Shown here in pieces: positions 2,685 through 51,464 of a stretch of 60,444 bases of DNA. Below the pieces are notes generated by a model. That model did no database searches. It was not told where the DNA came from and worked only from the letters and a program-made list of their open reading frames with translations. The translations under genes and the position numbers were made by a program. How positions within the stretch are numbered: position 1 is the stretch's first letter; each line of letters begins with the position of its first letter. Location: the NCBI GenBank assembly GCA_029213195.1, contig JARGNI010000034.1:1-60444 (forward strand). The letters are read 5' to 3'. Source of the stretch: Verrucomicrobiales bacterium. GTDB taxonomy: Bacteria > Verrucomicrobiota > Verrucomicrobiia > Verrucomicrobiales > DEV007.

Positions 2685-4028
2685 ATGAGCCGAGGAAACC
2701 AAAACTTTGCCGGAACCTGCGAGAAATCGATTTTGCCATCGATCGCCGTCGGCACCTTCGCCCTTCTCTCTTTCGGTAGTGAAACACCCGCGCGTGCCGA
2801 AACGACCAATCTCCCATCGACGCCTGCTGCAGAGGAGATTTCTATCCCGAAGCCCTGGATCGCGAGACTCGGCCAGGCTCCGAACTGGTCGCTGCTGGAA
2901 CCCTACCAGGAAACGATCACTCGTGAAGAGTTCGTCTATCTCCTGCAACATTGCTATGCGCGATCCCCCAAGGAGTATGCCGAGACCATTCAGATCTTTT
3001 CCGATCGTGCCCTCATCCTGAAGCAGTCGAATCATCCCGAGAAAGGCTGGTTTGTCCTCAGGTTCCGGACCGATCCTGCGCTACCCAGGCCCGCTCCGAA
3101 ATTCTGGCGCTCCGCAGCCGAGTTACCCGACCTGCCTGAAAATACAACCCGTCCCCTCGAAGGACTCCGTGTCGCGATCGACCCCGGCCACATCGGGGGA
3201 GACTGGGTGACCTGGGATGACCGCCATTTCAAGATCGGGCGGGATACGATCGAAGTCAGGGAGGGAGAGATGACCTTGAAAGTCGCCAAGATTCTCGAAC
3301 GCGACCTGACTCTCCTCGGAGCCAACGTCTTCCTCACGCGAAGCAGTAACAATCCTGTGACGGAAGAAAGGGTTGAGACCCTGCAACAGGAGGCCAGGGA
3401 CTATCTCCGCCAGAGAAAAAGAATCCCATCCGACAAGCTACTTGCAAGCACCGCCAAGGCCATGTTTGCCATCTCCAGCGAAATCCGGGCACGAGCGGAT
3501 CTGCTGAACGAGAGCATCCAGCCCGACGTGGCGCTCTGCCTCCATTTCAACGCCTCCCCCTGGGTATCCCGCCGCCCTAGCTTTCGCAGCCCCAATCACC
3601 TTCATCTCCTCATCAACGGATGCTACAGCGAAGGCGAGATTCGCGAAGACGACACGCGGTTCGAGATGATCATGCGAATTCTTCAACGGGTGTATCAGAC
3701 CGAACTCGAGCTTTCGGATGAAATTTCGAGAACGATGAAATCAGAAACCCGGCTTCCCGCCTTTCACTACGATGGCACAAGTGGGATGTCTGTGAACGAA
3801 AACGAATTGGTCTGGGCCCGAAACCTCCTCGCCAACCGGGTCTTCTTCTGCCCCGTCATCTTTTTCGAGCCCTACTGCATGAATCATCGAGAGATTCACG
3901 CCCGGGTCCAGGAAGGAGCCTACGAAGGGCTCCGTGAAATCAACGGAATCTATCGCAAGAACATCTACCAGGAATATGCCGACGGGGTCACCGCCGGCCT
4001 CGTCCATTACTACCGGAAGAAGAGGTAG
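2685..4028 (+). CDS. N-acetylmuramoyl-L-alanine amidase (Amidase_3), exported
   Basis: This enzyme would cleave the bond between N-acetylmuramic acid and the stem peptide of peptidoglycan in the periplasm. Residues 15-39 form a signal-peptide-like segment ending near PARAE. A family-specific region follows, then the zinc amidase fold from about residue 160: DPGHIGG with H169, the metal-binding Glu in REGEMTLKVA, and CLHFNA carrying the second His. The catalytic Glu is probably in FFEPYCMN near the C-terminus. The family core is interrupted by a long helical insertion with many Arg and Gln residues. The gene is divergent from ymdB with 23 nt between starts, so the start may be slightly misplaced or the promoters overlap. 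No Shine-Dalgarno sequence is visible. Confidence 0.8.
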   Translation: MSRGNQNFAGTCEKSILPSIAVGTFALLSFGSETPARAETTNLPSTPAAEEISIPKPWIARLGQAPNWSLLEPYQETITREEFVYLLQHCYARSPKEYAETIQIFSDRALILKQSNHPEKGWFVLRFRTDPALPRPAPKFWRSAAELPDLPENTTRPLEGLRVAIDPGHIGGDWVTWDDRHFKIGRDTIEVREGEMTLKVAKILERDLTLLGANVFLTRSSNNPVTEERVETLQQEARDYLRQRKRIPSDKLLASTAKAMFAISSEIRARADLLNESIQPDVALCLHFNASPWVSRRPSFRSPNHLHLLINGCYSEGEIREDDTRFEMIMRILQRVYQTELELSDEISRTMKSETRLPAFHYDGTSGMSVNENELVWARNLLANRVFFCPVIFFEPYCMNHREIHARVQEGAYEGLREINGIYRKNIYQEYADGVTAGLVHYYRKKR

Positions 4029-29396: not shown

Positions 29397-31373
29397 ATGA
29401 ATCATGATTTGATGATATGTATCTCTCTCGTTGCTTCCACTGGCTGCGTCACCCTCGGTGTCGCGCAGGAAGCAAACGAATTGGATACCCAGTCCTCTCT
29501 CGAGGAGACGATTGTCGAATCAGGAATCGATCCTCCTGCAACACCGAGGCAAATCATTTCAAACCAGGCGTCCACCCAGGCCGGCAATACCCCGGTGACG
29601 ACGACGAAGAAACCCGACAGCGCGATTTCTCCGGTGCAGGAGATCACCTCCTTCGACACGATTTCCGCGGCAGAGATTCGAACTCGGCAGAGAAGAGGAA
29701 TCGAAGATGTCCTGCGGCAAAGCGCGGGGGTCACTCTCGTCCAGACCGGCCAATCCGGGAACCAGACATCGCTCTTCGTACGGGGGCAGGAGAGCGATCA
29801 CACCGTCGTGCTGCTGAATGGTCGGCGACTTCCTCCGGGTCTCGCCGGATTGTATCAACTCGAATTTCTCGACGTCTCGACCCTCGAGTCCGTCCAGCTC
29901 CATCGAGGTCCCCTCAGTTCCCTCTACGGTTCGGACGCACTCGCCGGTGCACTCGACCTCCGCTCGACCGATGCCCGCTTCGTTCAAGACAACACCTTCG
30001 AAGGGTTCGCCGAGACTGGGTCCTTTGAAACCACCCGATCCGGAGTTCGTCTCGGGCTCCGGGAAGGACAGGTCGGCATTGCCATCGATGCCGCCGGAAC
30101 GAGAACCGCAAACGATCGTCCCAACTCCGACTTCGAAAACCGCATCGTTCGTGGAAACCTCGCCTATGACCTCTCCGACGGAGTCCAGATCGACTTCCTC
30201 GGCTATCTCCAGGATGCCTCGGTCGTGATCGCCGGCCCCAATCCCGCCGCCTTCGGCCCTCCCTTCCCCGCCAACCAACTCAACCAGAACACTTCCTACC
30301 TCTTCTCCCCCCGACTCACGATCAGCCGCGAGAACTGGGATTTCTCGCTCTTCTACAGCCATTCCGGAAATGAATTGATTGCCAGTCGAACCGGAGGAAA
30401 CGACAACACGCTCAAGCAGGTCGGGGAAGAAGTGGAAACCCTGTTCCACCTTCGGGCTTCCGAAACTCTCGAGTGGACCCTGGGAGCAGGGCACTATCAC
30501 TACGACTTCGGAAGAGTGCCCGTCGGCCGTGCCCCGACCGGCTTCCACTATGGGTTCACCGGAATTTTCAGCCAAGTCGATTGGGAGTTTCTTCCCGACA
30601 CAACTCTCCTCGCCTCGTACCGCTACGACGAGCACGATTCCTTTTCCAGCAAGGGCACCTACTCTGCGCAGTTGAGCCACGATCTCTCCAGAACAGGAAC
30701 GACCGCTTTTGCTCGGATCGCCACCGGATACAAGGTCCCCTCCGGACAGGACTACGCCTTCCTCGATCCGAGCGTGGCTCCGGGCTCTCTCCTTCCGGAA
30801 GAAAGCGAGTCCATCGAATTCGGTCTGAAGCAGCAGATCGGAGAGAACAGCCAGATCAACATCAGCTATTTCGAAACCGACCTCGACAACCTCGTCGACG
30901 GACGCTTCAGCTTCGTGAGTTTCACCAGCTTTCCTACCGTGGTCGATACCGAGATCCGGGGAACTGAGATCGAGTTTCGCACCTCGCCTCTCGATGGACT
31001 GGAGCTGTATGCGAACTACACCTGGCTCGATACCGTCATCACCCGTGGTCTTCTCGGATTCGGAGCCAACCGTCCCGGAGATCGCCTTCCCCGTCGTCCA
31101 ACCCATTCTCTAAGTGGAGGAATCCTTCTCGAAGGAGACCGCTGGAACGCAGGACTCGAAGTGAACGGCGCCTACTCTCGTCTCGATTCCGGGAACGTCC
31201 CCCTCGAAGACTACACCGTCGCCCGAGTCTTCGGAAACTTCGCTCTCAACGATTCCGTCGAGATTTACGGACGGGTCGAAAACGTCTTCGACGAGCAATT
31301 TGAAACCGTGCGCAGCTTTGCTGCTCCCGGCACTGGCGCCTACATCGGATGTCGCGTCGTTTTGGGCCAATAA
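29397..31373 (+). CDS. TonB-dependent receptor, BtuB-like
   Basis: A 658-residue outer-membrane active transporter. A signal peptide covers residues 1-23; a TonB-box-like EETIVESG and a Thr/Pro-rich linker follow. The plug domain (about 75-190) has the family blocks ADVLRQSAGV-like IEDVLRQSAGVTLVQTGQ, SLFVRGQESDHTVVLLNGRRLP, and LHRGPLSSLYGSDALAGAL. The rest is a 22-stranded barrel of Asp/Asn-rich strands ending in the aromatic GAYIGCRVVLGQ. The best-matching relatives in layout are vitamin B12 receptors of the BtuB type. It lies 66 nt before cobalamin-dependent metH on the same strand, so cobalamin uptake is a reasonable inference, though the substrate is not proved. Confidence 0.8.
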   Translation: MNHDLMICISLVASTGCVTLGVAQEANELDTQSSLEETIVESGIDPPATPRQIISNQASTQAGNTPVTTTKKPDSAISPVQEITSFDTISAAEIRTRQRRGIEDVLRQSAGVTLVQTGQSGNQTSLFVRGQESDHTVVLLNGRRLPPGLAGLYQLEFLDVSTLESVQLHRGPLSSLYGSDALAGALDLRSTDARFVQDNTFEGFAETGSFETTRSGVRLGLREGQVGIAIDAAGTRTANDRPNSDFENRIVRGNLAYDLSDGVQIDFLGYLQDASVVIAGPNPAAFGPPFPANQLNQNTSYLFSPRLTISRENWDFSLFYSHSGNELIASRTGGNDNTLKQVGEEVETLFHLRASETLEWTLGAGHYHYDFGRVPVGRAPTGFHYGFTGIFSQVDWEFLPDTTLLASYRYDEHDSFSSKGTYSAQLSHDLSRTGTTAFARIATGYKVPSGQDYAFLDPSVAPGSLLPEESESIEFGLKQQIGENSQINISYFETDLDNLVDGRFSFVSFTSFPTVVDTEIRGTEIEFRTSPLDGLELYANYTWLDTVITRGLLGFGANRPGDRLPRRPTHSLSGGILLEGDRWNAGLEVNGAYSRLDSGNVPLEDYTVARVFGNFALNDSVEIYGRVENVFDEQFETVRSFAAPGTGAYIGCRVVLGQ

Positions 31374-31392
31374 ACACCAGAAAACCGGACCC

Positions 31393-31423
31393 AACAGGGT
31401 TGAGTCCCGCATCATACCCTGTT
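31393..31423 (+). promoter_or_regulatory. Inverted repeat upstream of metH, shared with the metB-like gene
   Basis: AACAGGGT (31393-31400) and ACCCTGTT (31416-31423) are complementary arms separated by 15 bases, ending 16 bases before the metH start. The left arm is preceded by C and followed by TGA, so the 5' part reads CAACAGGGTTGA. The same arms, the same TTGA and the same spacing occur upstream of the metB-like operon (51361-51393) in the sense orientation. It could be an RNA hairpin or a DNA operator. Unrelated to known SAM or cobalamin riboswitch cores as far as I can tell. Confidence 0.7.
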
Positions 31424-31439
31424 ACCTCTTCTCCCACCT

Positions 31440-34400
31440 ATGAACAGCTCCCTTACCAAAGAACTCCAGACCGAACTCGAGAAACGCATCCTCGTTCTCG
31501 ACGGAGCCATGGGAACCACGATCCGAGGCTACGAGCTCTCGGAATCCGATGCCCGGGGGGAACGATTCAGCAGCAACGATAAGGACCTGCTCAACAACGG
31601 CGACATCCTCTCCCTGACCCAGCCCGAAGTCATCGGCGATATCCACAAGCGCTTTCTCGAAGCCGGGTCCGATATCATCGAGACCAACACCTTCTCTGGC
31701 ACCACCCTCGCCCAAAGTGAGTTTTTCGTGGAAGATCCGCGCGAGTCCGGCAAAGGACGAAAGGATCCCGAATTCTTTCAGCGGGAAGTCGTCGACAATT
31801 CCTTCCTCAAGGATTTGGCGTGGGAGCTCAACGTCGAATCCGCCAAGCTCGCCCGGAAATGGTGTGACAACATCGGGAGCGATACCGGGCGCAAGCGTTA
31901 TGTAGCCGGGGCGATCGGACCGATGACCGTCTCCCTGACCAATTCCCCTGATGCCGAAGACCCCGGATTCCGCGTCGTCGTTTTCGACCAGGTCCGCGAT
32001 GCCTACAAGCACCAGATCCGGGCGCTCATCGAAGGCGGCACCGACATCATGATGGTGGAAACCATTTTCGATTCGCTCAACGCCAAGGCCGCCCTCGTCG
32101 CCCTTCGTGAAGTCTACGACGAAGACGGCATCGAGCTGCCTATCATCGTATCGGCTGCCGTCGGTCGAGGCGGAGAAACCATGATCTCGGCCCAGAAGGT
32201 GGAGGCGATGTGGAACGCCGTCGCCCATGTCAATCCGCTCGCGGTCGGACTCAACTGTTCCCTCGGACCCGACCTCATCGAGCCTCATCTTGCGGAGCTC
32301 TCCAAGGTCGCGGAAACCCATGTCTCGGTCTACCCGAATGCCGGACTTCCCAATCCCCTCGCACCAACGGGATTCGATCTCGAGCCCGCGGACATGGAGA
32401 AGTTTCTCGAGGACTTCGCGAAGCAGGGTCTCGTCAATCTCATCGGTGGTTGCTGTGGGAACACTCCCGAACACGTCGCAGCCATCGCCAAGGTCGCCGA
32501 GCGACAGCCTCCCCGCCCCGTCCCCACGGCCGAGCCCGTCATGCGTCTGAGCGGATCGGAAACCTACAATCATGACAAGACCAAGAACTTTCTCATGGTC
32601 GGAGAACGCACCAATGTTGCCGGCTCTCCTCGTTTCAAGAAACTGATCAAGGAAGACAAGCTCGAGGACGCCGTCGCCATCGCCCGTCAGCAGGTCGAAG
32701 GCGGAGCACCCGTCATCGACGTCTGCATGGACGAGGGCATGATCGAAGGGGTTCCCGTGATGACGCGCTTCCTCAACCTCCTCGCCTCCGAGCCCGACGT
32801 CGCCGCCGTGCCCATCATGGTCGATTCCTCGAAGTGGGAGATCATCGAAGCCGGACTGCAGTGCCTCCAGGGCAAGGGCATCGTGAACTCCATTTCCCTG
32901 AAGGAAGGAGAGGAAGCCTTCAAGGAACAGGCACGCAAGATCATGAAATACGGGGCTGCCGTCGTCGTCATGGCCTTTGACGAGAAAGGCCAGGCGGACA
33001 GCTACGAGAGCAAGATTCGCATCTGCGAACGTGCCTACCGCATCCTCGTCGATGAAGTCGGCTTCAACCCCGAAGACATCATCTTCGATCCCAACATCCT
33101 CACGGTCGCGACGGGTATGGAGGAACACAACAACTACGCCGTCGACTTCATCGAAGCGACTCGCTGGATCAAGGAGAACCTCCCCGGCGCCAAGGTCAGT
33201 GGAGGAGTTTCCAATATCTCGTTCAGCTTCCGGGGGAACAATGTCGTTCGCGAGGCGATGCACGCGGCATTTCTCTATCATGCCGGAAAAGCCGGGATGG
33301 ATATGGGGATCGTCAATCCCGGTATGCTCGAGGTCTACGACGAGGTCGAGCCCAAGCTTCTCAAACTCGTCGAGGACGTCCTTCTGAACCGCCATCCCGA
33401 CGCGACCGAAGCTCTCATCGACCACGCCGAGGAACTGAAGGCCGCAGGAGCGACCGGCGGCAGCAAGAAGTCCGGACCGGATCTCAGCTGGCGGGAAGCC
33501 CCTTTCGCCGATCGGATTTCTCATTCTCTGGTCAAAGGAATCACCGACTTTATCGAAGAAGACACGGAGGAAGCCAGCCAGGCTCTTGGGAAGCCACTCA
33601 ACGTCATCGAAGGCCCGCTCATGGATGGGATGAAAGTCGTCGGCGACCTCTTCGGTGCCGGAAAAATGTTTCTCCCCCAGGTCGTGAAGAGCGCCCGGGT
33701 CATGAAGAAGGCCGTCGCCTACCTCGAGCCCTACATGCTTGCCGAAAAAGAAGAGGGTGCGGAAGATACCGCTCCCGTTTTCGTGATCGCGACGGTGAAG
33801 GGAGACGTCCACGACATCGGAAAGAACATCGTAGGCGTCGTGTTAGGGTGCAACGGCTACAAGGTCATCGACCTCGGGGTCATGGTCGACTGCGAAAAAA
33901 TCATGGCCGCCGCGATCGAGCACAAGGCCGATATTGTCGGCATGTCAGGACTGATCACCCCCTCGCTCGACGAGATGATCTACAACGCCAAGGAGTTCGA
34001 GAAAAAGGGATACAAGCTCCCTCTTCTTCTCGGCGGGGCCACTACCTCACGGGCTCACACCGCGATCAAGATCAGCGAGCACTATTCGCAACCGGTCGTC
34101 CATGTCGGCGACGCCTCGCTTGTCGTCAGCGTCTGCAACAAGCTGCTTTCCGACAACATGCGGGAAGAGTTTCTCGCCGAGCACAAGACCGCCGAAATCC
34201 GCGAGCGTGAGATCTATGCCGGAAAGGGTTCGTCAGCAGTTTACATCCCATTCGAGGACGCCAAGGAACAGAAGTACACGATCGATTGGGAAACCAGCGA
34301 TCTCGCCATTCCCGAAGCAATCGGCCAGCAGGACTGGGATCGCGTACCGCTCCAGGAAATCGTCGAGGTCTTCGACTGGTCCCCCTTCTTCCACGCCTGG

Positions 34401-35231
34401 GAACTTCGGGGTGTCTTTCCCAAGATCCTCGAGCACAAGAATCACGGCGAAGAAGCAAAGAAACTCTACGACGACGCCCGGCGCATTCTCGAAGATCTCG
34501 TCGGCAACGAGCGTCTCCACTGCCGCGCGACTTGGGGAATTTTCCCGGCTCACTCAACCGGAGAAGACGTCGAGCTTTTCTCCGACGAGGCGAAGCAGAA
34601 TCACCTCACGACCTTCCACTTTCTTCGTCAGCAAAAGGAGAAGCTCAAGGAGGGCACGCCCTACCAGAGTCTCGCCGACTTCATTGCTCCTCGCCACGAA
34701 GATGGGGCCGACTGCGGTCGCTCCGATCACCTCGGTGCGTTCGCCGTCACCGCAGGAAACGAGATCGAAGAGTACGCGAAGACTTTCAAGGATGCCGGAG
34801 ATGACTACACCGCGATCCTCATTCAAGCGCTTGCCGACCGCTTTGCGGAAGGCCTCGCCGAGCTGCTCCACAAGAAGGTCCGAGACTCCATGGGTTTCGG
34901 AAAGGACGAGGGCCTCCAAGTCGAAGATTTCATCAAGGAACGCTACCGGGGCATCCGGCCAGCGGCGGGATACCCGGCCTGCCCCGATCACACCGAAAAA
35001 GCGATCTTGTGGGATCTCCTCGATGTAGAGAAGCGGACGGGCATGCAGCTCACTACGAGCTACGCCATGTTCCCGCCGAGTTCCGTGAGCGGACTCTATT
35101 TCTTCAACGAAGAGGCTCGCTACTTCAATGTCGGCAAGATCGAGCGGGATCAACTCGAAGACTACGCCGCGAGGAAGAAAATGAGCATCGAGGAAGCCGA
35201 GAAGTGGCTCGCCCCGAATCTCGCGGATTGA
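31440..35231 (+). CDS. metH: Cobalamin-dependent methionine synthase
   Basis: MetH transfers the methyl group from methyl-tetrahydrofolate to homocysteine through a corrinoid. The 1263-residue length is full. Domains in order: homocysteine binding with the zinc Cys of NCSLGPDL and [10 protein letters not shown], pterin binding from about residue 370 ([13 protein letters not shown] ... [14 protein letters not shown]), a helical cap, the cobalamin module with D789-V-H791-D-I-G in [24 protein letters not shown], and a C-terminal SAM-binding reactivation domain ([29 protein letters not shown]). Transcription may continue from the upstream TonB receptor gene, but the inverted repeat just before the ATG suggests its own control. 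No Shine-Dalgarno sequence. Confidence 0.98.
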
Positions 35232-39718: not shown

Positions 39719-39813
39719 ATTCGCAAAATTGATACCCAGTTTGTTTTGCTTTCCTCTTTATACCGAATCCGCCTCTTGGTATGCTCGCCGTCTCTCCTTC
39801 TACCGAAATAGAC

Positions 39814-42800
39814 ATGACACTGAAGCTCGTGGTCACCACGAACGTCGATGGCGACGTTTTCGAACTCATTCTCACGAAATCCAAGTATCGGGTAGGTCGA
39901 CGACACGACAATGATCTCCGCATCAAGGAGACCTATGTCTCTGCCTATCATTCGGAATTGAACCGCACGGAAGAGGGCCATTACGAACTGAGTGACTGCG
40001 GCTCGAGCAACGGCACCTATCTCAATGGAGTAAAGCTCCAGAAGCCGGAAAAGATCAAGGCAGGCGACTTCATCAAATTTGGAATCCTCAAGGTAGCCGT
40101 CAAGGAGCACGAAGACAAAGGACCGACCATCGTTTCGCTCAAGGACCGCCCGGTCTTCGCCAAGAAGAGAGGCGAGAATACTTCTTCCATCCCCCCGAGC
40201 GGGAACACCGGTCGCATTGGTTCCATCGACTCGGGAGCAACCGGTCCCTCACCCGTCCAGACGGGAGCCACTGACACCACTTCCAGTGAGATCGAAGAAC
40301 TGGAAGCCCTTCTAGCCAGTGAAACGTCACGGAACGAATCCCTCGAAGCGAAACTGGCCAAGCAGGAAGAGCAGATTCAAAAGCTACAGGATGAGGTTCA
40401 AGGCCAGGAAGACACGGCATCCGAAACCCTGAAGGGCGCTTCCTCGCAAAAAGCTGAACTGGAAGAAGCACGCAAAGAGCAGGATCAGGAGATCGAGAAA
40501 CTTCGTGCCGAACTGGAAACGACTGCCAAAGAGCTGCAGGAAAAGCTGAAGCAAGAAAAAACCCGGGCATCCGAGATCGAATCGGAACTCGAACCGGAGA
40601 AGGGTTCCGCAAAGGACCTGCTCAAGAAGATCGCGGTTCTCGAAGCCGCTCAGACCCAGGAACAAAAATCCGCAGGAGCTGCCCAGACCCAGTTGGAAGA
40701 GGCGCTGACCACAAGAACGGCGGAGCTGACCGAGGTCTCCGACCGGGTTGCCGAACTGGAGAAAGCCCTCCTCGAGAAGGAGGAGAATCTCGCCAATGCC
40801 ACCTCCGAAATCGAGGCGCAGGAAGCGAAGCTGGCGGAGAAAGAGAAAACACTCGAGCAGACCATCGAGGAATTGACCGAGGCGAATTCCGAAGAAGCCA
40901 AGGCGCGCGAAGCACTGGAAGAAACCAACCGATCCCAACTCGAGGAGCGGGAAGAACTCGTTCAACAACTGGACGACCTCCAATCCGAACTGGAGGAGGA
41001 AAAGAAGAAGGCCTCGAGTGTCGTTGAGGAACTTACCAAGGTCACCGCGGTGGCCGGAACCGTGGCTCTCCTCAAGAGTCAATTGGGTGAATCCTCGAAC
41101 CGGGCCCAGGAACTCGAAGCCGAAAAAGAGGAGGTCACCGCCCGCCTCGTGGCGAAAGAGAACGAGACCGCCGACCTCGGCTCGCGCCTCAAGGATTTCG
41201 AAGAGAAGTCACAAGCCCTGGAAGAGAAAAACCAATCTCTCGAGAAGGAAGTGGCCGAGAAAGAGTCGCAGGTACTCCAGCAATCCCAGGGAGGCACCGA
41301 GCTGCAGAAGTCCCTCGCCGCAGCCGAGAAAGAAAAGTCGAAGCTCAACACCCAACTTGAGAAGAAGTCCGCAGAAGCAGAGCAGACTAAGGGGGAGCTG
41401 ACCGAGCTGAAACGAGAAATCAAATACCTCCAGAGTTCCGTAGAGACTTTCGAAGCCGAGCAATCCAAAGCCTCCACCCAACTACAGGAGCTCGAAGATC
41501 AAGCCAGAGCGTTGTCGGAAGAAAAGGAATCCCTGATCTCGCAACGGGAAGAGCAGAACAAGGAGAAGAAAGCAAAGCAGACGTCCGAAGAGAAGGAAGC
41601 CCGCCTCCTCAAGGAAAAGCTCTCACTCAGCAGCAGTTTCGAACGATTGAAAGATCAATTGCACGGTCTTGAAACCGAGAAAGCAGAGTGGACCGAGAGG
41701 GAGAAGACCCTCCAGCATGACAAGGGCGTCATCGCGAGGAAGCTCGAAAAGGCCGAGGCGAGCAACAGCGAACTGGCCGCCAAGATCAAGGAGGAGCAAA
41801 CCAACGCGATTGCTCACCAGGCCCTCGTCAGCAAACTCGAAACGCAGCTGAGCGAAAACGAGTCGGAGTCCGTGCGTCGCGAGCAACAGCGTATCGCTGC
41901 CGTGCAGACCGAGCTCCGCAACGAAAAGAAGGCTCACGAGAGCGACCTCCAGAAACTTGAGCAGCTGGAACAGAAGCTAGTGCTCCTTCAGCAGAAGAAG
42001 ACCGAAGCCGATGAACAGATTCATTCCCTTCGAGATGAAAAGCTTCGTCTGGAGAGCGAGCAAACCTCGTCTTCGAAGATTCTCCAGGAGACCGAGAAGA
42101 AACGAGCCACCCTGACGTCCTCCCTCGAAGACAAGACGCAGCTGGTAGCGACTCACGAGAACACCATCGCCGAGAAAGTGGCCGCGATTGCCGCCCTCAC
42201 CGCTCGATATTCTCGCTCGGAGGAGAAACTGGTGACCGAGCACCAGCAGGAAAGAGAAAAACTTCACAACGAGATTCACGAAGAACGCACCGCAAAGGAA
42301 GAGTTGGCCGTCGAGTTGGAGACAGCCCAGAAGCGGCAACAACAATCCGAGCAACGACGAGAGAAGCTCGCCGGAACCATTGCTTCCTCCGAGAAACGGA
42401 TTGCCGCACTCCAGAAACTGGAGTCGGAAATCGAGAATGTCGTCGAACGGAAACGGAAGCAGGGCATCATCAGTCGCAGCGAAATTTTCAGTGCCACCTC
42501 TGCCGAGCTGTCCTCACCGAACGGCGAGTTCTCAAGAGAGGATTTCTATCGCAAGCTGATCAACAAGCTCGATCTCATCGACGATCTTTCGAAGCGCTAT
42601 GACAACCGCTGGCGTTACCCTCGAGTGGCCGAGCAACTCACGCTCTTGAAGAGTAGCTTCCTCGACTTTCTCCATGATCATTCCGTCAAGGAATTCAATC
42701 TCGAACCCGGCACGGTTCTCTCCGTGGAAGAGCGCAAACGCATCAAGCTTGTCCCTCAAAAAGAGTCCGTGTCGAAAAAGTCGAAACCTCTTCCTTCCCG

Positions 42801-42909
42801 AACCAACGGACAACGGTCGAAGGTCGTTACCACGATTCGGCCTGGCTACGTCTACAAGGACGGCGGACGCGACGTGATCATTCGCAAAGCCGAGGTCATT
42901 GTCGCCTGA
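39814..42909 (+). CDS. FHA-domain/coiled-coil protein with a GrpE-like C-terminus
   Basis: A 1031-residue protein. Residues 1-95 are a complete FHA domain (YRVGRRHDNDLRI, SAYHSEL with the phosphothreonine-contact Ser and His, and SSNGTYLNG), so it should read phosphothreonine. A Pro/Ser/Gly linker (residues 110-155) leads to an extremely long coiled coil of Glu/Lys/Gln/Ala heptads (about 160-890). The last 140 residues (REDFYRKLINKLDLIDDLSKRY, and the end TTIRPGYVYKDGGRDVIIRKAEVIVA) match the layout of the GrpE dimer and beta domain (GYxxxDRVLRxAxVxVA). The next gene encodes an Hsp70, which supports a nucleotide-exchange role. No Shine-Dalgarno sequence. I chose the ATG at 39814. Confidence 0.65.
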   Translation: MTLKLVVTTNVDGDVFELILTKSKYRVGRRHDNDLRIKETYVSAYHSELNRTEEGHYELSDCGSSNGTYLNGVKLQKPEKIKAGDFIKFGILKVAVKEHEDKGPTIVSLKDRPVFAKKRGENTSSIPPSGNTGRIGSIDSGATGPSPVQTGATDTTSSEIEELEALLASETSRNESLEAKLAKQEEQIQKLQDEVQGQEDTASETLKGASSQKAELEEARKEQDQEIEKLRAELETTAKELQEKLKQEKTRASEIESELEPEKGSAKDLLKKIAVLEAAQTQEQKSAGAAQTQLEEALTTRTAELTEVSDRVAELEKALLEKEENLANATSEIEAQEAKLAEKEKTLEQTIEELTEANSEEAKAREALEETNRSQLEEREELVQQLDDLQSELEEEKKKASSVVEELTKVTAVAGTVALLKSQLGESSNRAQELEAEKEEVTARLVAKENETADLGSRLKDFEEKSQALEEKNQSLEKEVAEKESQVLQQSQGGTELQKSLAAAEKEKSKLNTQLEKKSAEAEQTKGELTELKREIKYLQSSVETFEAEQSKASTQLQELEDQARALSEEKESLISQREEQNKEKKAKQTSEEKEARLLKEKLSLSSSFERLKDQLHGLETEKAEWTEREKTLQHDKGVIARKLEKAEASNSELAAKIKEEQTNAIAHQALVSKLETQLSENESESVRREQQRIAAVQTELRNEKKAHESDLQKLEQLEQKLVLLQQKKTEADEQIHSLRDEKLRLESEQTSSSKILQETEKKRATLTSSLEDKTQLVATHENTIAEKVAAIAALTARYSRSEEKLVTEHQQEREKLHNEIHEERTAKEELAVELETAQKRQQQSEQRREKLAGTIASSEKRIAALQKLESEIENVVERKRKQGIISRSEIFSATSAELSSPNGEFSREDFYRKLINKLDLIDDLSKRYDNRWRYPRVAEQLTLLKSSFLDFLHDHSVKEFNLEPGTVLSVEERKRIKLVPQKESVSKKSKPLPSRTNGQRSKVVTTIRPGYVYKDGGRDVIIRKAEVIVA

Positions 42910-43017
42910 CGAAAAAGATCTTAACGAAAACCGAGAAAACGGAGAAACCCATTTCTGGAAACGCACGCGAAACACGAGCCACTCAGGAAACAAACACGAC
43001 AAACCGAAAGAGAAATC

Positions 43018-44517
43018 ATGTCAGACAAAACCGCGAAATACGTGGGGATCGATCTGGGCACCAGCACCTCAGCGCTGGCCCACGTCCGCAGTGACGGAAA
43101 CCCCGAGATCGTTTCCAACTCCGACGGAGAACGGCTCACCCCTTCCGTCGTCTTTTTCGATCAATTTGAAGGAGTCAAACTGGTCGGCTCGTCGGCCAAG
43201 GATGGCGGCGACCCGGACCGGACAGTCCGACACATCAAGAAGCACATGGACAACCCCAGTCATGTCGTCGAGATCGATGGGGAAAAATGGACTCCTACGG
43301 AAATCTCGGCACTCGTCCTGTCGAAACTCCGTAAGGATTGCTCTCAACTCATCGGGAGAATCGAGGACGTCGTCCTGACGGTCCCGGCCAACTTCAATGA
43401 GTTGGCCCGGAAGGCCACTGTCACCGCCGGAAAACTCGCCGGCCTCAATGTGAAGCGCATCGTCAATGAGCCCACGGCCGCGGCCCTCTACTACGCCCAC
43501 ACCCAGTCGGTGGAAGGTCGAGTCCTTGTCTTTGATCTCGGGGGAGGAACCCTGGACATCACCATCCTCGATATCCGAGGCGACAGCGTCGACATCCTTC
43601 TCAGCGAAGGAGCCCGACACCTCGGGGGATCTGATTTCGACGCGGCTCTCATCGAGTTGATCGGAGAAGAATATCGGAAACAGAACAAGCGCGATCTTGT
43701 TCTCAACGAGTCCCAGCGACGCCGCCTACTCGCGGAAACCGAGGACACCAAGAAGCGACTTTCCAAGCTCAACACGATTTCGGAAAAGATCGGAACCGAT
43801 GATGTTGGCCTCGCCGAAGTGAAGCTCTCCAGGGAAGCCTTCGAGACCGCGATCGACGGCCTCCTCGTCCGCACGGTCATGCTCACGGAACAGGCGCTGC
43901 GAAACCTCAGCATCCAGCCTTCCGACATTGATCACGTCGTTCTTGTCGGGGGAAGCACCCGGATTCCCAAGGTGCAGAAGCTACTGGAAGAGCATTTTGG
44001 AAAACCTCCACTCTCTTGTGGCAACGTCGACGAATGCGTAGCGCTCGGAGCCGCGCTCTTTGCACAGCGACCTCGTCGGGTATCCGAAGTCTGCAATCAC
44101 AGCTATGGCACCCTTGCGATTATCGAGGATTCCTCTACCGGGGAATCGAAAGTGCAGAACTCCATCGTCATCCCCAAGAACACGCCCATTCCCTGTTCGA
44201 TGTCCCAGACCTACATCACGTCCGAGGACAATGAGGAACTCATCGAAGTGGAGATCTCCCAGGGGGAAGACCACGATCCGCGCTATGTCGATATCGTCGG
44301 CAAGATCAGTCTCAAAGTTCCTCCTGGCCGCCCTGCCGGTTGCGCCGTCACCGTGACCTACAGCTACGACGAGAATCAGCGTGTCCGCGTCCAGGTGACC
44401 GATGAGGAAACCGGTATCCAGGAGGATGTCGACATCGAATACAACGGACAGGGAGTTCTCGACGAAGATGAGATCCAGAGAAAGTCCGCCTACCTCAAGC
44501 AGGTCAAGATTGCCTGA
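43018..44517 (+). CDS. Divergent Hsp70 lacking the C-terminal lid
   Basis: A 499-residue Hsp70-family chaperone, about 130 residues shorter than DnaK. The ATPase domain is intact: IDLGTSTSALAHV (phosphate 1), TVPANFNELARKAT, NEPTAAALYY, VFDLGGGTLDITIL (phosphate 2), LVGGSTRIPKVQKLL (adenosine). The substrate domain has only the beta part (PNTPIP-like IPKNTPIPCSMSQTYITSEDNEELIEVEI) and the linker; the helical lid is missing and the protein ends SAYLKQVKIA. The gene follows the FHA-GrpE-like gene by 108 nt, which suggests that the pair work as chaperone and exchange factor. No DnaJ gene is present. Confidence 0.88.
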   Translation: MSDKTAKYVGIDLGTSTSALAHVRSDGNPEIVSNSDGERLTPSVVFFDQFEGVKLVGSSAKDGGDPDRTVRHIKKHMDNPSHVVEIDGEKWTPTEISALVLSKLRKDCSQLIGRIEDVVLTVPANFNELARKATVTAGKLAGLNVKRIVNEPTAAALYYAHTQSVEGRVLVFDLGGGTLDITILDIRGDSVDILLSEGARHLGGSDFDAALIELIGEEYRKQNKRDLVLNESQRRRLLAETEDTKKRLSKLNTISEKIGTDDVGLAEVKLSREAFETAIDGLLVRTVMLTEQALRNLSIQPSDIDHVVLVGGSTRIPKVQKLLEEHFGKPPLSCGNVDECVALGAALFAQRPRRVSEVCNHSYGTLAIIEDSSTGESKVQNSIVIPKNTPIPCSMSQTYITSEDNEELIEVEISQGEDHDPRYVDIVGKISLKVPPGRPAGCAVTVTYSYDENQRVRVQVTDEETGIQEDVDIEYNGQGVLDEDEIQRKSAYLKQVKIA

Positions 44518-48689: not shown

Positions 48690-50189
48690 TCAAAGACTCG
48701 CAAAAGCGGTCTCCATGCGTTCTTCAAGGTCCTCAGGGTCCTCGAGACCGATCCAAAGCCGGAGAAGATTTCGGGGCGCCCCTCGCTCCGCGGCCCATTC
48801 CAATTCTCCGTAGTGCGCCAGCAGCGTATACGGGCAAGCGAGGGTGAAATCCGTTCCCAGACTGGGCCCCTTCGAGACTCGGAGCGCATCATAAAAGGAT
48901 CTGGCGGCAGGCTCGCCACCCGCCAGTTCGAATGAGAAGAGAGATCCATAGGAACCGTCGTCGCGTTTCACCTGGTCGTAAAATTCCCGGCAGTTCCCCG
49001 ATGGATGCCACAGGGATTGAACGGCGGGATGATCCCGGAACAGGGGCAGGATCGCCTCGGTGATCTCATCCGAAGCCCGCACACGCTCTTCGAAATGCCG
49101 CGAATTGTGCTCCAGCACATCGGCATCGCGCAGGAAGAGACGAGAACCTGATTCCGCAATGGGCAGTTCCTCGCGCAAAAAGTCCTCGTGGATTCCTCCC
49201 GGCTTCAGGATGACCGCCCCCGCAGCGACATCGCCGACGCCGGAAAAGGTTTTCGTAAGGCTAGTCGTCACGACATCAGCAAAACGGAAAGGATCGACGT
49301 TCACGGAGGAGGCAACGGTATCATCGACCACGAGCGGAATTTCCTTGTCCTGAACCAATTTCGAAATCCCGGCCAGGTCAGCCGTGCGCAGGAGCGGATT
49401 GCTCGGGATTTCGGTAAACACCGCAGCAGCATTCTCTCCCTGCCCCAGCCAGTCGCGAATCTCTTCCACGCCACCGGAACTGGTAATCGAAAAATCGACG
49501 ACACCTGCCCCGAACTGCTCCTGGACCTTGAACGAGTCCAGGTAAGGGAACTCGACCTGGATTGTCGGAGCTTCGATCCTGCCGGAAAGAATGCGATGAA
49601 CGGCGGCGACCGCGCCCATCCCGGAGGAGAAAAGAAAGACATCTTCCGCGGAGATTCCTTCATAGAAACTCGCGATTCGTTCCTTCAAAGTCGCCAAGGC
49701 AACGGCACCAGCCTTCTCGGCCGCTTCGGAAAGAGGAGCATCGGTCAATGCGCTCTCGGCGTGTCGGCTGCTGACGATCTCTCCGCTGTGCTGCCAGTAT
49801 TTCCAGGCAGACTCGTAGGCGGATTCCTCGAGAAGAAGCACGGTAAGTCCTTCCCACCCGTAGGACTCCAGGCGACAGGAGGCCCCACAACGACGCTTCA
49901 CATACTCCGCGGCGCGCCAGGCGGCGGCCAGGGAAGGGAAAACAATGGCCGTCTCTTCTTTCTTCGCAAACTCCTCCTGGGCTGCGAGGAAAAGCTCGGT
50001 GACAAAAGGATGAGGCACAAACCTGGGATAGCCACTCTCAAAGGTCTCGATGATCTCTTCCCGACCCTCCTCGTAGCCAATGACGTGATCCCACCGGGGA
50101 AGACAAACCGAGACAGCGTGATCACTGTCGGGGAGTGCCAGACCAAGGTCCTCCTCTTCGCAAAAGGGCTGGGTAAACGGGTCGCGCAT
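48690..50189 (-). CDS. Fungal-type cystathionine gamma-synthase-like PLP enzyme
   Basis: A 499-residue Cys/Met metabolism PLP enzyme with an N-terminal extension of about 130 residues. The N-terminal part (PDSDHAVSVCLPRWDHVIGYEEG ... GYPRFVPHPFVTEL) is the arrangement I recall from fungal STR2/MetB-type enzymes. The catalytic domain contains the PLP lysine in TTSLTKTFSGVGDVAAG and LVVDDTVAS. It would join homocysteine or cysteine with an activated homoserine. Its start at 50189 lies four bases after the stop of a second PLP enzyme, so the two are one operon. Substrate choice is inferred. Confidence 0.78.
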   Translation of the reverse strand: MRDPFTQPFCEEEDLGLALPDSDHAVSVCLPRWDHVIGYEEGREEIIETFESGYPRFVPHPFVTELFLAAQEEFAKKEETAIVFPSLAAAWRAAEYVKRRCGASCRLESYGWEGLTVLLLEESAYESAWKYWQHSGEIVSSRHAESALTDAPLSEAAEKAGAVALATLKERIASFYEGISAEDVFLFSSGMGAVAAVHRILSGRIEAPTIQVEFPYLDSFKVQEQFGAGVVDFSITSSGGVEEIRDWLGQGENAAAVFTEIPSNPLLRTADLAGISKLVQDKEIPLVVDDTVASSVNVDPFRFADVVTTSLTKTFSGVGDVAAGAVILKPGGIHEDFLREELPIAESGSRLFLRDADVLEHNSRHFEERVRASDEITEAILPLFRDHPAVQSLWHPSGNCREFYDQVKRDDGSYGSLFSFELAGGEPAARSFYDALRVSKGPSLGTDFTLACPYTLLAHYGELEWAAERGAPRNLLRLWIGLEDPEDLEERMETAFASL

Positions 50190-50193
50190 CGAT

Positions 50194-51348
50194 TCAAGAC
50201 TGCAAAGCCTGCCGGACATCTTCGATGAGATCCTCGACCGATTCGATCCCGACGGAAAACCGAACCAGCGAATCGGTGATCCCCACGGCTTCCCGTGTTT
50301 CCTTCGGCACACTGGCATGCGTCATCGAGGCAGGGTGGCAACAGAGCGACTCCACGCCGCCGAGGCTTTCGGCCTTGGGGAAGTAGCGGAGCGACTCCAC
50401 GATACGCAGGGTATCGTCGAGAGACCGACCAAAGTCGACCGTGACAATTCCCGACCCCCCGCTCATCTGGCGCTTCGCGATTTCAAACTGTGGGTGAGAT
50501 GGCAAGAACGGATACCGAACTGTCACCGCATCGGTTTCCTCTTCCAGAAAAGTTGCGAATCGCAGGGCATTCTCGCTGTGACGCTCCATCCGCAGGGACT
50601 CGGTCTTGGCGCCTCGCAGGGTGAGCCAGCAATCCATTGGCGAAGGCTGCAGGCCGAGCGCTTTCTGCGCAAAGATCATTTTCTCCTGCCACTCTTCCGA
50701 GGAAGTCGCGACCGCTCCGACAAGCGCATCAGAGTGACCGTTGGTGTACTTGGTCAGGGAGATCAGGGAAAGGTCCGCGCCGAGTTCCAAAGGACGCTGG
50801 AGGTAGCTGCTCGCGAAAGTGTTGTCGACAAGAAGAGGAGCCCCCGCCGCGTGGGCTGCCTCGGCAACGCGAGCGATGTCGAGAATCTTCAGGTTCGGGT
50901 TCGTCGGCGATTCGATCCAGACGAGAGCAGGCTGATGATCGGAAAGAGAGGCCAGGGATGCCTCCTCGGTAAAGTCGAGATATCGAATCTCAACGCCAAA
51001 CTTGGCAAAAACCTGGGCAAAGAGTCGAAAGGTGCAGCCGTAGATATTCTCCTCGGCTACGACGACGTCGCCGCTCTTCAAGGTCGAAACCACGGCCGTG
51101 ATGGCCGAAACGCCACTGCCAAAGCAGGTCGCAAACTCCCCGCCCTCGAGGCTGGCGACGGTGCGATCGAGGAGTCGGAAATTCGGATTCCCGGATCGGG
51201 TGTAGTCGAAACCATTGGGATTTCCGTATTCAAAGGTGGAGGTCAACCAGACCGGTGGAGTCACCGCGCCGGTTTCTCCCACGAAATCCCGACCCGAATG
51301 TATCGCCCGAGTTTCGAATCCTTCTCCCCCTGTTTCGCTTTTGCTCAT
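50194..51348 (-). CDS. metB: Cystathionine gamma-synthase/lyase (MetB/MetC-type)
   Basis: A 384-residue PLP enzyme of the Cys/Met metabolism family. Motifs are YTRSGNPNFRLLDRTVASLEGGE (phosphate contacts), LVDNTFASSYLQRPLELGADLSLISLTKYTNGHSDALVGA with the Schiff-base lysine, and the C-terminal GGVESLCCHPASMTHA and RFSVGIESVEDLIEDV. The start is the ATG at 51348 with a rare clear Shine-Dalgarno (GGAGA) six bases before it; an upstream TTG would add five residues only. The shared inverted repeat ends 12 bases before the start. It heads an operon with the fungal-type paralogue. It could act as gamma-synthase, O-acetylhomoserine sulfhydrylase or lyase. Confidence 0.88.
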   Translation of the reverse strand: MSKSETGGEGFETRAIHSGRDFVGETGAVTPPVWLTSTFEYGNPNGFDYTRSGNPNFRLLDRTVASLEGGEFATCFGSGVSAITAVVSTLKSGDVVVAEENIYGCTFRLFAQVFAKFGVEIRYLDFTEEASLASLSDHQPALVWIESPTNPNLKILDIARVAEAAHAAGAPLLVDNTFASSYLQRPLELGADLSLISLTKYTNGHSDALVGAVATSSEEWQEKMIFAQKALGLQPSPMDCWLTLRGAKTESLRMERHSENALRFATFLEEETDAVTVRYPFLPSHPQFEIAKRQMSGGSGIVTVDFGRSLDDTLRIVESLRYFPKAESLGGVESLCCHPASMTHASVPKETREAVGITDSLVRFSVGIESVEDLIEDVRQALQS

Positions 51349-51360
51349 TCTTCTCCGAAT

Positions 51361-51393
51361 CAACAGGGTTCAGTCAGACAGTCAACCCTGTTG
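51361..51393 (-). promoter_or_regulatory. Inverted repeat upstream of metB, shared with metH
   Basis: On the minus strand CAACAGGGTT and AACCCTGTTG form a perfect 10-bp stem with a 13-base loop, ending 12 bases before the metB start and four bases before its Shine-Dalgarno. The sense sequence begins CAACAGGGTTGA, has 12 variable bases and ends ACCCTGTT, exactly the layout found before metH. This shared element is most likely a methionine-related regulatory site (RNA hairpin or repressor operator). Confidence 0.7.
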
Positions 51394-51464
51394 CGTGTCA
51401 TCGTGGCGGAACGATGCCGATTCGTTTCTTGCCTGATCCCCCCACTTTTTGCCAACTTCTCCCC

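Follow-up and report, generated by a model that had tools for sequence, protein, structure and literature searches.

Two-box palindromic sites dispersed through Verrucomicrobiales genomes as putative recognition sites on double-stranded DNA

RESULTS

An inverted repeat lies beside metH and a metB-like gene

The window analyzed here is a stretch of 60,444 nt from a member of the Verrucomicrobiales, whose genome and genus are referred to below as the source genome and the source genus. The pattern CAACAGGGTTGA-N12-ACCCTGTT occurs in the window as exact copies at positions 31392 to 31423 (forward strand) and 51362 to 51393 (reverse strand), against an expectation of 0.00 matches in 100 dinucleotide shuffles. 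An earlier, sequence-only reading of this DNA had described an identical repeat, with a spacer of constant length, in front of both metH and a metB-like gene, and this description was confirmed. The copies are parts of longer sites, designated A and B (Table 1), whose box limits were taken from a symmetrized profile of 50 sites in the source genome. Between the stop codon of a BtuB-like gene and the metH copy lie 19 nt, and another 16 nt separate this copy from the metH ATG. The left box of site A, GACCCAACAGGGTTGAGTC, agrees with the consensus throughout, whereas beyond the core the match of the right box is poor. The start of the metB-like gene lies 13 nt beyond the reverse-strand copy.

TABLE 1 Genes and two-box sites at the two loci of the window
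Feature	Coordinates	Strand	Remarks
BtuB-like gene, TonB-dependent vitamin B12 receptor-like	29397..31373	+	TIGR01779, 165.9 bits, below the curated cutoff of 599.7
Two-box palindromic site A	31388..31428	.	41 bp; 31-bp core at 31393-31423; in the 66-nt gap between the BtuB-like gene and metH
metH, cobalamin-dependent methionine synthase	31440..35231	+	TIGR02082 and NF007024, both above the cutoff
metB-like PLP enzyme, cystathionine gamma-synthase family	50194..51348	-	NF005871, 397.7 bits, below the cutoff of 513
Two-box palindromic site B	51357..51397	.	41 bp; 31-bp core at 51362-51392; immediately 5' of the metB-like gene (- strand)

The placement of a gene for a BtuB-like B12 receptor directly 5' of the cobalamin-dependent metH is a sensible pairing, and it occurs without an Rfam riboswitch in the window. 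At the Rfam gathering threshold, two tRNAs were the only members of known RNA families detected in the window. Second in the metB-like operon is a gene (48690 to 50219) for a divergent PLP enzyme, which among NCBIfam models matched BesB best, at 205 bits compared to a cutoff of 800. Elsewhere, the region from 39781 to 44517 encodes, as judged from reading the sequence, a 1042-aa protein with FHA and coiled-coil parts, followed by an Hsp70-like protein.

The repeat is abundant genome-wide in three genera

The 31-bp core of the sites, AACAGGGT-N15-ACCCTGTT, was present in 39 exact copies in the whole source genome (control, 0), and the number rose to 84, 106, and 172 copies when up to one, two, or three mismatches were allowed (controls, 0, 2, and 25, respectively). 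When any gap of 4 to 30 was permitted between the arms, 40 exact pairs were found (control, 0), one of which was an overlapping longer pair. At so high a genome-wide density, the occurrence of two copies within 60 kb is unremarkable. The analyses of the source genome that follow use 50 sites (39 exact and 11 with one mismatch), which are those among the matches listed out of the 84 at up to one mismatch.

At up to two mismatches, the core was abundant in 32 of 95 related genomes, and these were confined to three genera. In the source genus, 28 of the 33 genomes (the source genome included) carried 20 to 209 copies, with control values of at most 5, at a density in these site-rich genomes of approximately one site per 28 to 175 kb. 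With regard to nucleoid or segregation sites of the parS, Noc, or matS type, for which a bias toward chromosomal domains would be expected, the 37 exact sites of G011 were distributed across 12 contigs without clusters visible by eye (no statistic was applied). The other five genomes of the genus held 0 to 6 copies. Two of these five, G025 (6 copies) and G029 (1 copy), are nearly without sites at 95% completeness, and the two-box system is therefore dispensable; of the remaining three, two are about half complete and one is 77% complete. By eye, two of the few copies in G025 (loci L024 and L126) adjoin apparent metal-efflux genes, perhaps on acquired DNA.

At the same threshold, the four genomes searched in the two other genera were all rich in copies (459 and 922 in genus g10 and 227 and 151 in genus g12). 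The 21 genomes from the rest of the family had at most 5 copies each, where control values also reached 5, and the 37 genomes from other families of the order had at most 2 copies each. In a sample of 387 genomes from the phylum, which shows no further member of the source family, the other 386 genomes held at most 2 copies at up to one mismatch. Among the matches listed, the named public records were from Verrucomicrobia, with titles mostly giving Verrucomicrobiales or Verrucomicrobiia. Among the papers listed in literature searches, none concerned such a repeat as judged by title, and none named work on chromosome organization or gene-end control of this kind in the phylum. A collection of viral sequences contained no exact match to a 20-letter pattern, and a viral origin was rejected on this basis.

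Each site is a pair of boxes with a 22-bp step

The symmetrized profile continued past the arms, with GAYYC before AACAGGGT and TG-R-GTC after. Read in this manner, each half of the site is a 19-bp pseudopalindromic box, which in the source genus reads GAYYCAAC-AGG-GTTGRGTC. The whole site pairs two of these boxes, oppositely oriented and separated by 3 bp, which gives a total length of 41 bp and box centers 22 bp apart. The outer arms are CGA and TTCG in g10 (14 sites) and CGAT and ATCG in g12 (15 sites), with AACAGGGT kept.

The spacing of the two boxes is nearly fixed. In three genomes in which gaps of 4 to 30 were allowed, N15 accounted for 39 of 40, 37 of 38, and 478 of 488 pairs. Where exact half-sites paired within the fetched loci, their start distances were 23 when inverted (n = 191), 22 when direct (n = 9), and 21 when everted (n = 5); the number of inverted pairs follows from the way in which the loci were fetched, whereas the direct and everted pairs were unselected. 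The 8-mer is not centered on the box, and each of the three distances therefore corresponds to 22 bp from center to center. Further half-site pairs, at distances of 44 (six pairs), 45 (eight pairs), and 67 (two pairs), fit multiples of this step, and seven pairs at 15, 17, 36, 38, 40, 58, and 81 fall off it. When one mismatch was allowed, 17 of the 27 arrays of at least three boxes, counted by hand, contained only steps of 21 to 23.

A five-box array (L118, positions 2659 to 2760) and a related three-box array (L134, positions 3152 to 3210), from two species, lie by eye between peroxiredoxin and aconitase genes; a regulator was sought by eye among the genes flanking these two dense arrays and was not found. 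Locus L243 (positions 220 to 280) of G029, a genome without a normal site, carries AATAGGGTACAATT-like repeats at steps of 15 and 21 bp.

Sites in the source genus are concentrated behind stop codons

In the source genome, 24 of the 50 sites were in gaps between codirectional genes, 8 in convergent gaps, 6 in divergent gaps, and 12 inside genes, compared to 87% of random positions falling inside genes. Over all sets, convergent gaps held 40 sites and divergent gaps 22; in the set of 14 sites from G053, the corresponding numbers were 2 and 6. Where the gap was codirectional, the upstream stop codon was the nearer gene boundary in 73 of 96 cases. Within the source genus, 110 of 155 intergenic sites lay at most 60 nt behind a stop codon, and 20 lay at most 60 nt from a start codon and away from a stop. 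Among the 142 sites with both flanks known, 75% were stop-proximal, compared to 32% of intergenic positions; for the 28 sites in codirectional gaps of at least 200 nt, the share was 61%, versus 17% of positions. Genes were called with a home-made finder that makes some strand errors. The position of site A behind the BtuB-like stop codon fits this gene-end pattern. In G053 and G043, from genera g10 and g12, 14 of 29 sites were inside genes according to a cruder open reading frame method, and the 3'-end bias is therefore stated here for the source genus.

Three of four checked copies inside genes arose by substitution

About a quarter of the sites at up to one mismatch (46 of 195) overlapped predicted genes, and 40 of these 46 were mid-gene; many of the in-gene loci among the 195 sites had been fetched by their inner letters. 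The in-gene copies were distributed over the three reading frames as 33, 11, and 2, and the main frame encodes QQGxVxDxTLL. Four copies were compared with homologous proteins. Relative to solved homologues, the LipB and PanC copies each had 0 to 1 added residues and the HemC copy had 2. The sulfatase copy, which may be either a substitution or an insertion, showed no gap in the stretch itself against one homologue but was followed closely by 10 additional residues; against another homologue, 6 residues were added. Since an inserted element would add 10 to 14 residues, the copies in LipB, PanC, and HemC, three of the four checked, represent substitution in place. The predominance of mid-gene positions among the in-gene copies led us to reject a roadblock terminator as the only function of the site.

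Variation in the arms points to reading of double-stranded DNA

The sequence-only reading had proposed an RNA hairpin as one of two alternatives, the other being a palindromic operator, and had suggested a search for compensatory changes. Compensatory changes were unconvincing in either of the two hairpins that the site could form. For the dyad of the whole site, complementarity was not in excess in the source genome (P = 0.79) or in G010, G011, and G032, and in G053 it was below expectation (0.562 versus 0.616). G007 showed a weak excess of pairing (P = 0.03, 21 sites), as did mixed-genome sets (P = 0.0075 for 39 sites and P = 0.0013 for 111 sites); pooling of genomes that differ in composition may account for the excess in the mixed sets but cannot account for that in G007. 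Loci L078 to L196, for whose retrieval the inner letters of the pattern were fixed, were kept out of these P values, were included in the 3'-end, gap-class, and in-gene counts given above, and were shown apart in the test of the dyad inside each box. In that test, |z| was below 3, the sign was inconsistent, and no position had a steady excess. We therefore rejected both an RNA hairpin across the two arms and a second hairpin within each box. Because the arms vary mostly without compensation, we conclude that recognition depends on the base sequence as such, the simplest agent being a protein, and that the site probably acts as double-stranded DNA and not as an RNA hairpin.

Several observations nevertheless agree with an RNA element at gene ends, either a terminator or a hairpin that stabilizes mRNA. 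These are the 3'-end position, the weak pairing excess in G007 and the mixed sets, a slight surplus of G-U over A-C pairs (88 versus 65), and the occurrence of a T-run on the transcript side in 10 of 110 gene-end sites, compared to 0 on the other side. At L003 (positions 1501 to 1550), a perfect hairpin is followed by T7, and the site seems to be fused there to an intrinsic terminator. A terminator role is thus possible for a minority of gene-end sites; the other 100 of the 110 have no T-run.

The named neighbors of the sites show no methionine theme

Alignments between loci that spanned the site placed site on site in 48 of 50 cases (both directions counted), often with diverged intergenic flanks; the loci in these 50 alignments had been fetched for carrying sites. 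An unbiased test was made by gene. The metB site was kept, at up to three mismatches, in 18 of 24 congeners, a count that leaves out L251, which lacks the gene start, and by eye it lies about 9 to 13 nt before the metB start in these 18 species. It was absent just upstream in G015, G016, G019, G023, G025, and G029. In G025, the arms of the metB site are altered and the two are, by eye, not alike, so the site looks decayed and a switch of motif in this genome was rejected. The metH site was found in 2 of 26 congeneric upstream regions; in G006, sites lie approximately 200 nt further up, and several other genomes have half-sites.

We also analyzed the neighbors of the 48 further sites in the source genome. 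An NCBIfam model was matched at an E value of ≤1e-25 by 41 of the 84 neighboring genes, many of them below the cutoff of the model. The named neighbors include efflux pumps, TypA, TilS, PhoU, ribosomal protein S9, DnaE, RecJ, SSB, LeuS, PBP1C, MenD, several sulfatases, triose-phosphate isomerase, and others. The sole methionine-cycle gene among the 41 was ahcY, and the site there (L009, positions 1501 to 1531) is 21 nt behind its stop codon. In our own reading of the sequences, no function shared by neighbors was apparent across 40 genomes; a weak functional theme may still exist among the neighbors, since 43 of the 84 carry no NCBIfam name.

The repeat had been interpreted in the sequence-only reading as a methionine- or SAM-responsive element that should accompany methionine genes in relatives. 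The genome-wide distribution of the site, the lack of an Rfam match in the window, the rarity of the metH copy among congeners, and the unrelated neighbors led us to reject a methionine or SAM riboswitch or regulon, and we do so with higher confidence than we have in the function proposed below. Given its conservation upstream of metB in most congeners, site B may have a local effect on that gene.

DISCUSSION

We think it probable, on balance, that the two-box sites are chromosome-wide recognition sites on double-stranded DNA for a putative, probably tetrameric protein whose role would lie in chromosome architecture or at gene boundaries. The anatomy of the site is established with higher confidence than its function, and we hold the architectural or boundary function with modest confidence. 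The 22-bp step between box centers corresponds to about two turns of the helix, so a pair of dimers or one tetramer of a sequence-specific DNA-binding protein could occupy adjacent positions on the same helical face, and a dimer of dimers would be the simplest geometry for boxes so placed. Binding by a protein is itself an inference. In the source genus, the sites are kept mainly in the short stretch behind stop codons and at tolerant places within genes. The copies in the middle of genes speak against a strong roadblock, and the concentration at 3' ends speaks against a simple promoter operator; hence, an architectural or boundary role is favored. The least certain step is that the protein would serve chromosome architecture, or would mark or insulate gene ends (through topology or control of read-through), rather than control a regulon. 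Site A would then be the gene-end site of the BtuB-like gene, and site B would be a long-standing, conserved copy with a possible further effect on metB.

A more elaborate form of this proposal is rather speculative. A tetrameric protein on 41-bp gene-end sites might act as an insulator or topological anchor, its specificity having shifted from genus to genus while hundreds of sites changed along with it, including those within genes, where the site would force the peptide QQGxVxDxTLL. Two candidate binding proteins were rejected. None of the 95 genomes yielded a member of the ArgR family (PF01316; control positive in 9 of 14), and the Rep_3 family (PF01051) was found in 3 of 95 (G059, G063, and G079), none of which has sites above background, and both are therefore absent from the genomes with sites.

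The site could instead serve as the operator for a conventional transcription factor whose regulon, of unusual size, includes metB and perhaps metH. Its palindromic form, its retention shortly before the metB start in most congeners, the minority of intergenic sites close to a start and away from a stop, and the location of 6 of the 14 G053 sites in divergent gaps are all consistent with an operator, but over all sets divergent gaps hold fewer sites than convergent gaps, codirectional copies are mostly closer to the upstream stop, about a quarter of the sites are in genes and predominantly mid-gene, and the named neighbors share no functional theme. We consider this explanation unlikely. The earlier term "palindromic operator" holds in the loose sense of a palindromic binding site on double-stranded DNA and fails in the sense of a methionine operator.

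Slightly less likely still is a signal for self-recognition in DNA uptake, similar to the DUS and USS, that would have accumulated by biased transformation. At 41 bp, the site is long for a DNA uptake signal, which counts against this reading, as does the low density of sites in the source genus. Single boxes are also not enriched: lone exact 8-mers numbered 25, versus 39.6 (standard deviation, 32.5) for words of the same composition, and lone CAACAGGGTT occurred 0 times in 1.21 Mb, versus 2.0 for shuffled words. On the other hand, the sites are dispersed over intergenic gaps and tolerant coding places, the three coding copies noted above arose by substitution, and the constant core with genus-specific variants resembles the DUS "dialects" named in the title of PMC3630211.

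We regard as doubtful the idea that the site is a REP-like palindrome that spreads as a small mobile element. The sequence-only reading had set such a spread against its own proposal, and the genome-wide copies that we found largely correspond to it; a classical REP element, in contrast, is not what the search for transposases indicates. The copy number, the patchy distribution among genera, and the position behind genes in unidirectional or convergent gaps match the REPs in the accessible part of PMC3733652, and the sulfatase copy could be an insertion. However, the Y1/RAYT transposase (Y1_Tnp) was not found in five genomes with 20 to 99 copies (G002, 59; G008, 99; G010, 20; G013, 48; G020, 20), of which three are 91 to 92% complete, G002 is 75% complete, and G008 is 69% complete, and a single RAYT was present in each of the two genomes with 459 and 922 copies. 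The sites have no GTAG or CGTC tag, the profiles showing other flanks in all three genera, stem compensation is unconvincing, the LipB, PanC, and HemC copies are not insertions, and the 1.21 Mb contained no solitary CAACAGGGTT as a candidate terminus of a parental element. Membership in the REP/RAYT family was rejected since RAYT transposases do not track copy number. Finally, an RNA element at gene ends is very improbable as a general explanation, given the existence of mid-gene copies, the scarcity of T-runs, and the lack of compensation in the source genome and in G010, G011, and G032, with a deficit in G053.

A 41-bp site of nearly fixed form, of which tens to hundreds of copies are maintained, some of them within the coding sequences of unrelated proteins, needs strong continuous selection, and none of the families tested accounts for the selective force. 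If the proposed binding protein were found, bacterial chromosome organization or gene-end control would become testable in this phylum. The case also provides a caution that palindromes common to two genes of a pathway need not mean a pathway regulon.

The two-box site was compared with several known systems. The ARG boxes bound by ArgR are pairs of pseudopalindromic boxes of approximately 18 bp, a few base pairs apart and with centers about two turns apart. This geometry is like that of the two-box site, but the sequence differs and the Arg_repressor family is missing from all of the relatives searched. The iterons of Rep_3 initiators have a 22-bp period, with direct or inverted boxes. The period is alike; the two-box sites are instead spread over the chromosome, in genomes from which Rep_3 is absent. 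Neisserial DNA uptake sequences occupy both intergenic and coding places, like the two-box site. As far as the accessible parts of PMC3630211 and PMC2397512 describe them, they are also abundant, genome-wide, and divided into lineage dialects, whereas the two-box site has paired boxes at one spacing, unenriched single boxes, and a far lower density in the source genus.

REP elements of the GTAG and CGTC families, of which GTAG REPs have been reported for Opitutus terrae, resemble the two-box site in being short palindromes present in tens to hundreds of copies and limited to lineages, and they likewise lie behind genes in unidirectional or convergent gaps, as the two-box site does in the source genus (PMC3733652, accessible part). 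The two-box site differs in lacking a tag, a RAYT link, or convincing stem compensation and in having a 22-bp geometry and in-gene copies that arose by substitution in three of the four cases checked. HIP1 of the cyanobacteria is likewise a highly iterated palindrome of unclear function; according to the accessible part of PMC4390886, it is an 8-mer linked to orphan methyltransferases, whereas the two-box site extends over 41 bp.
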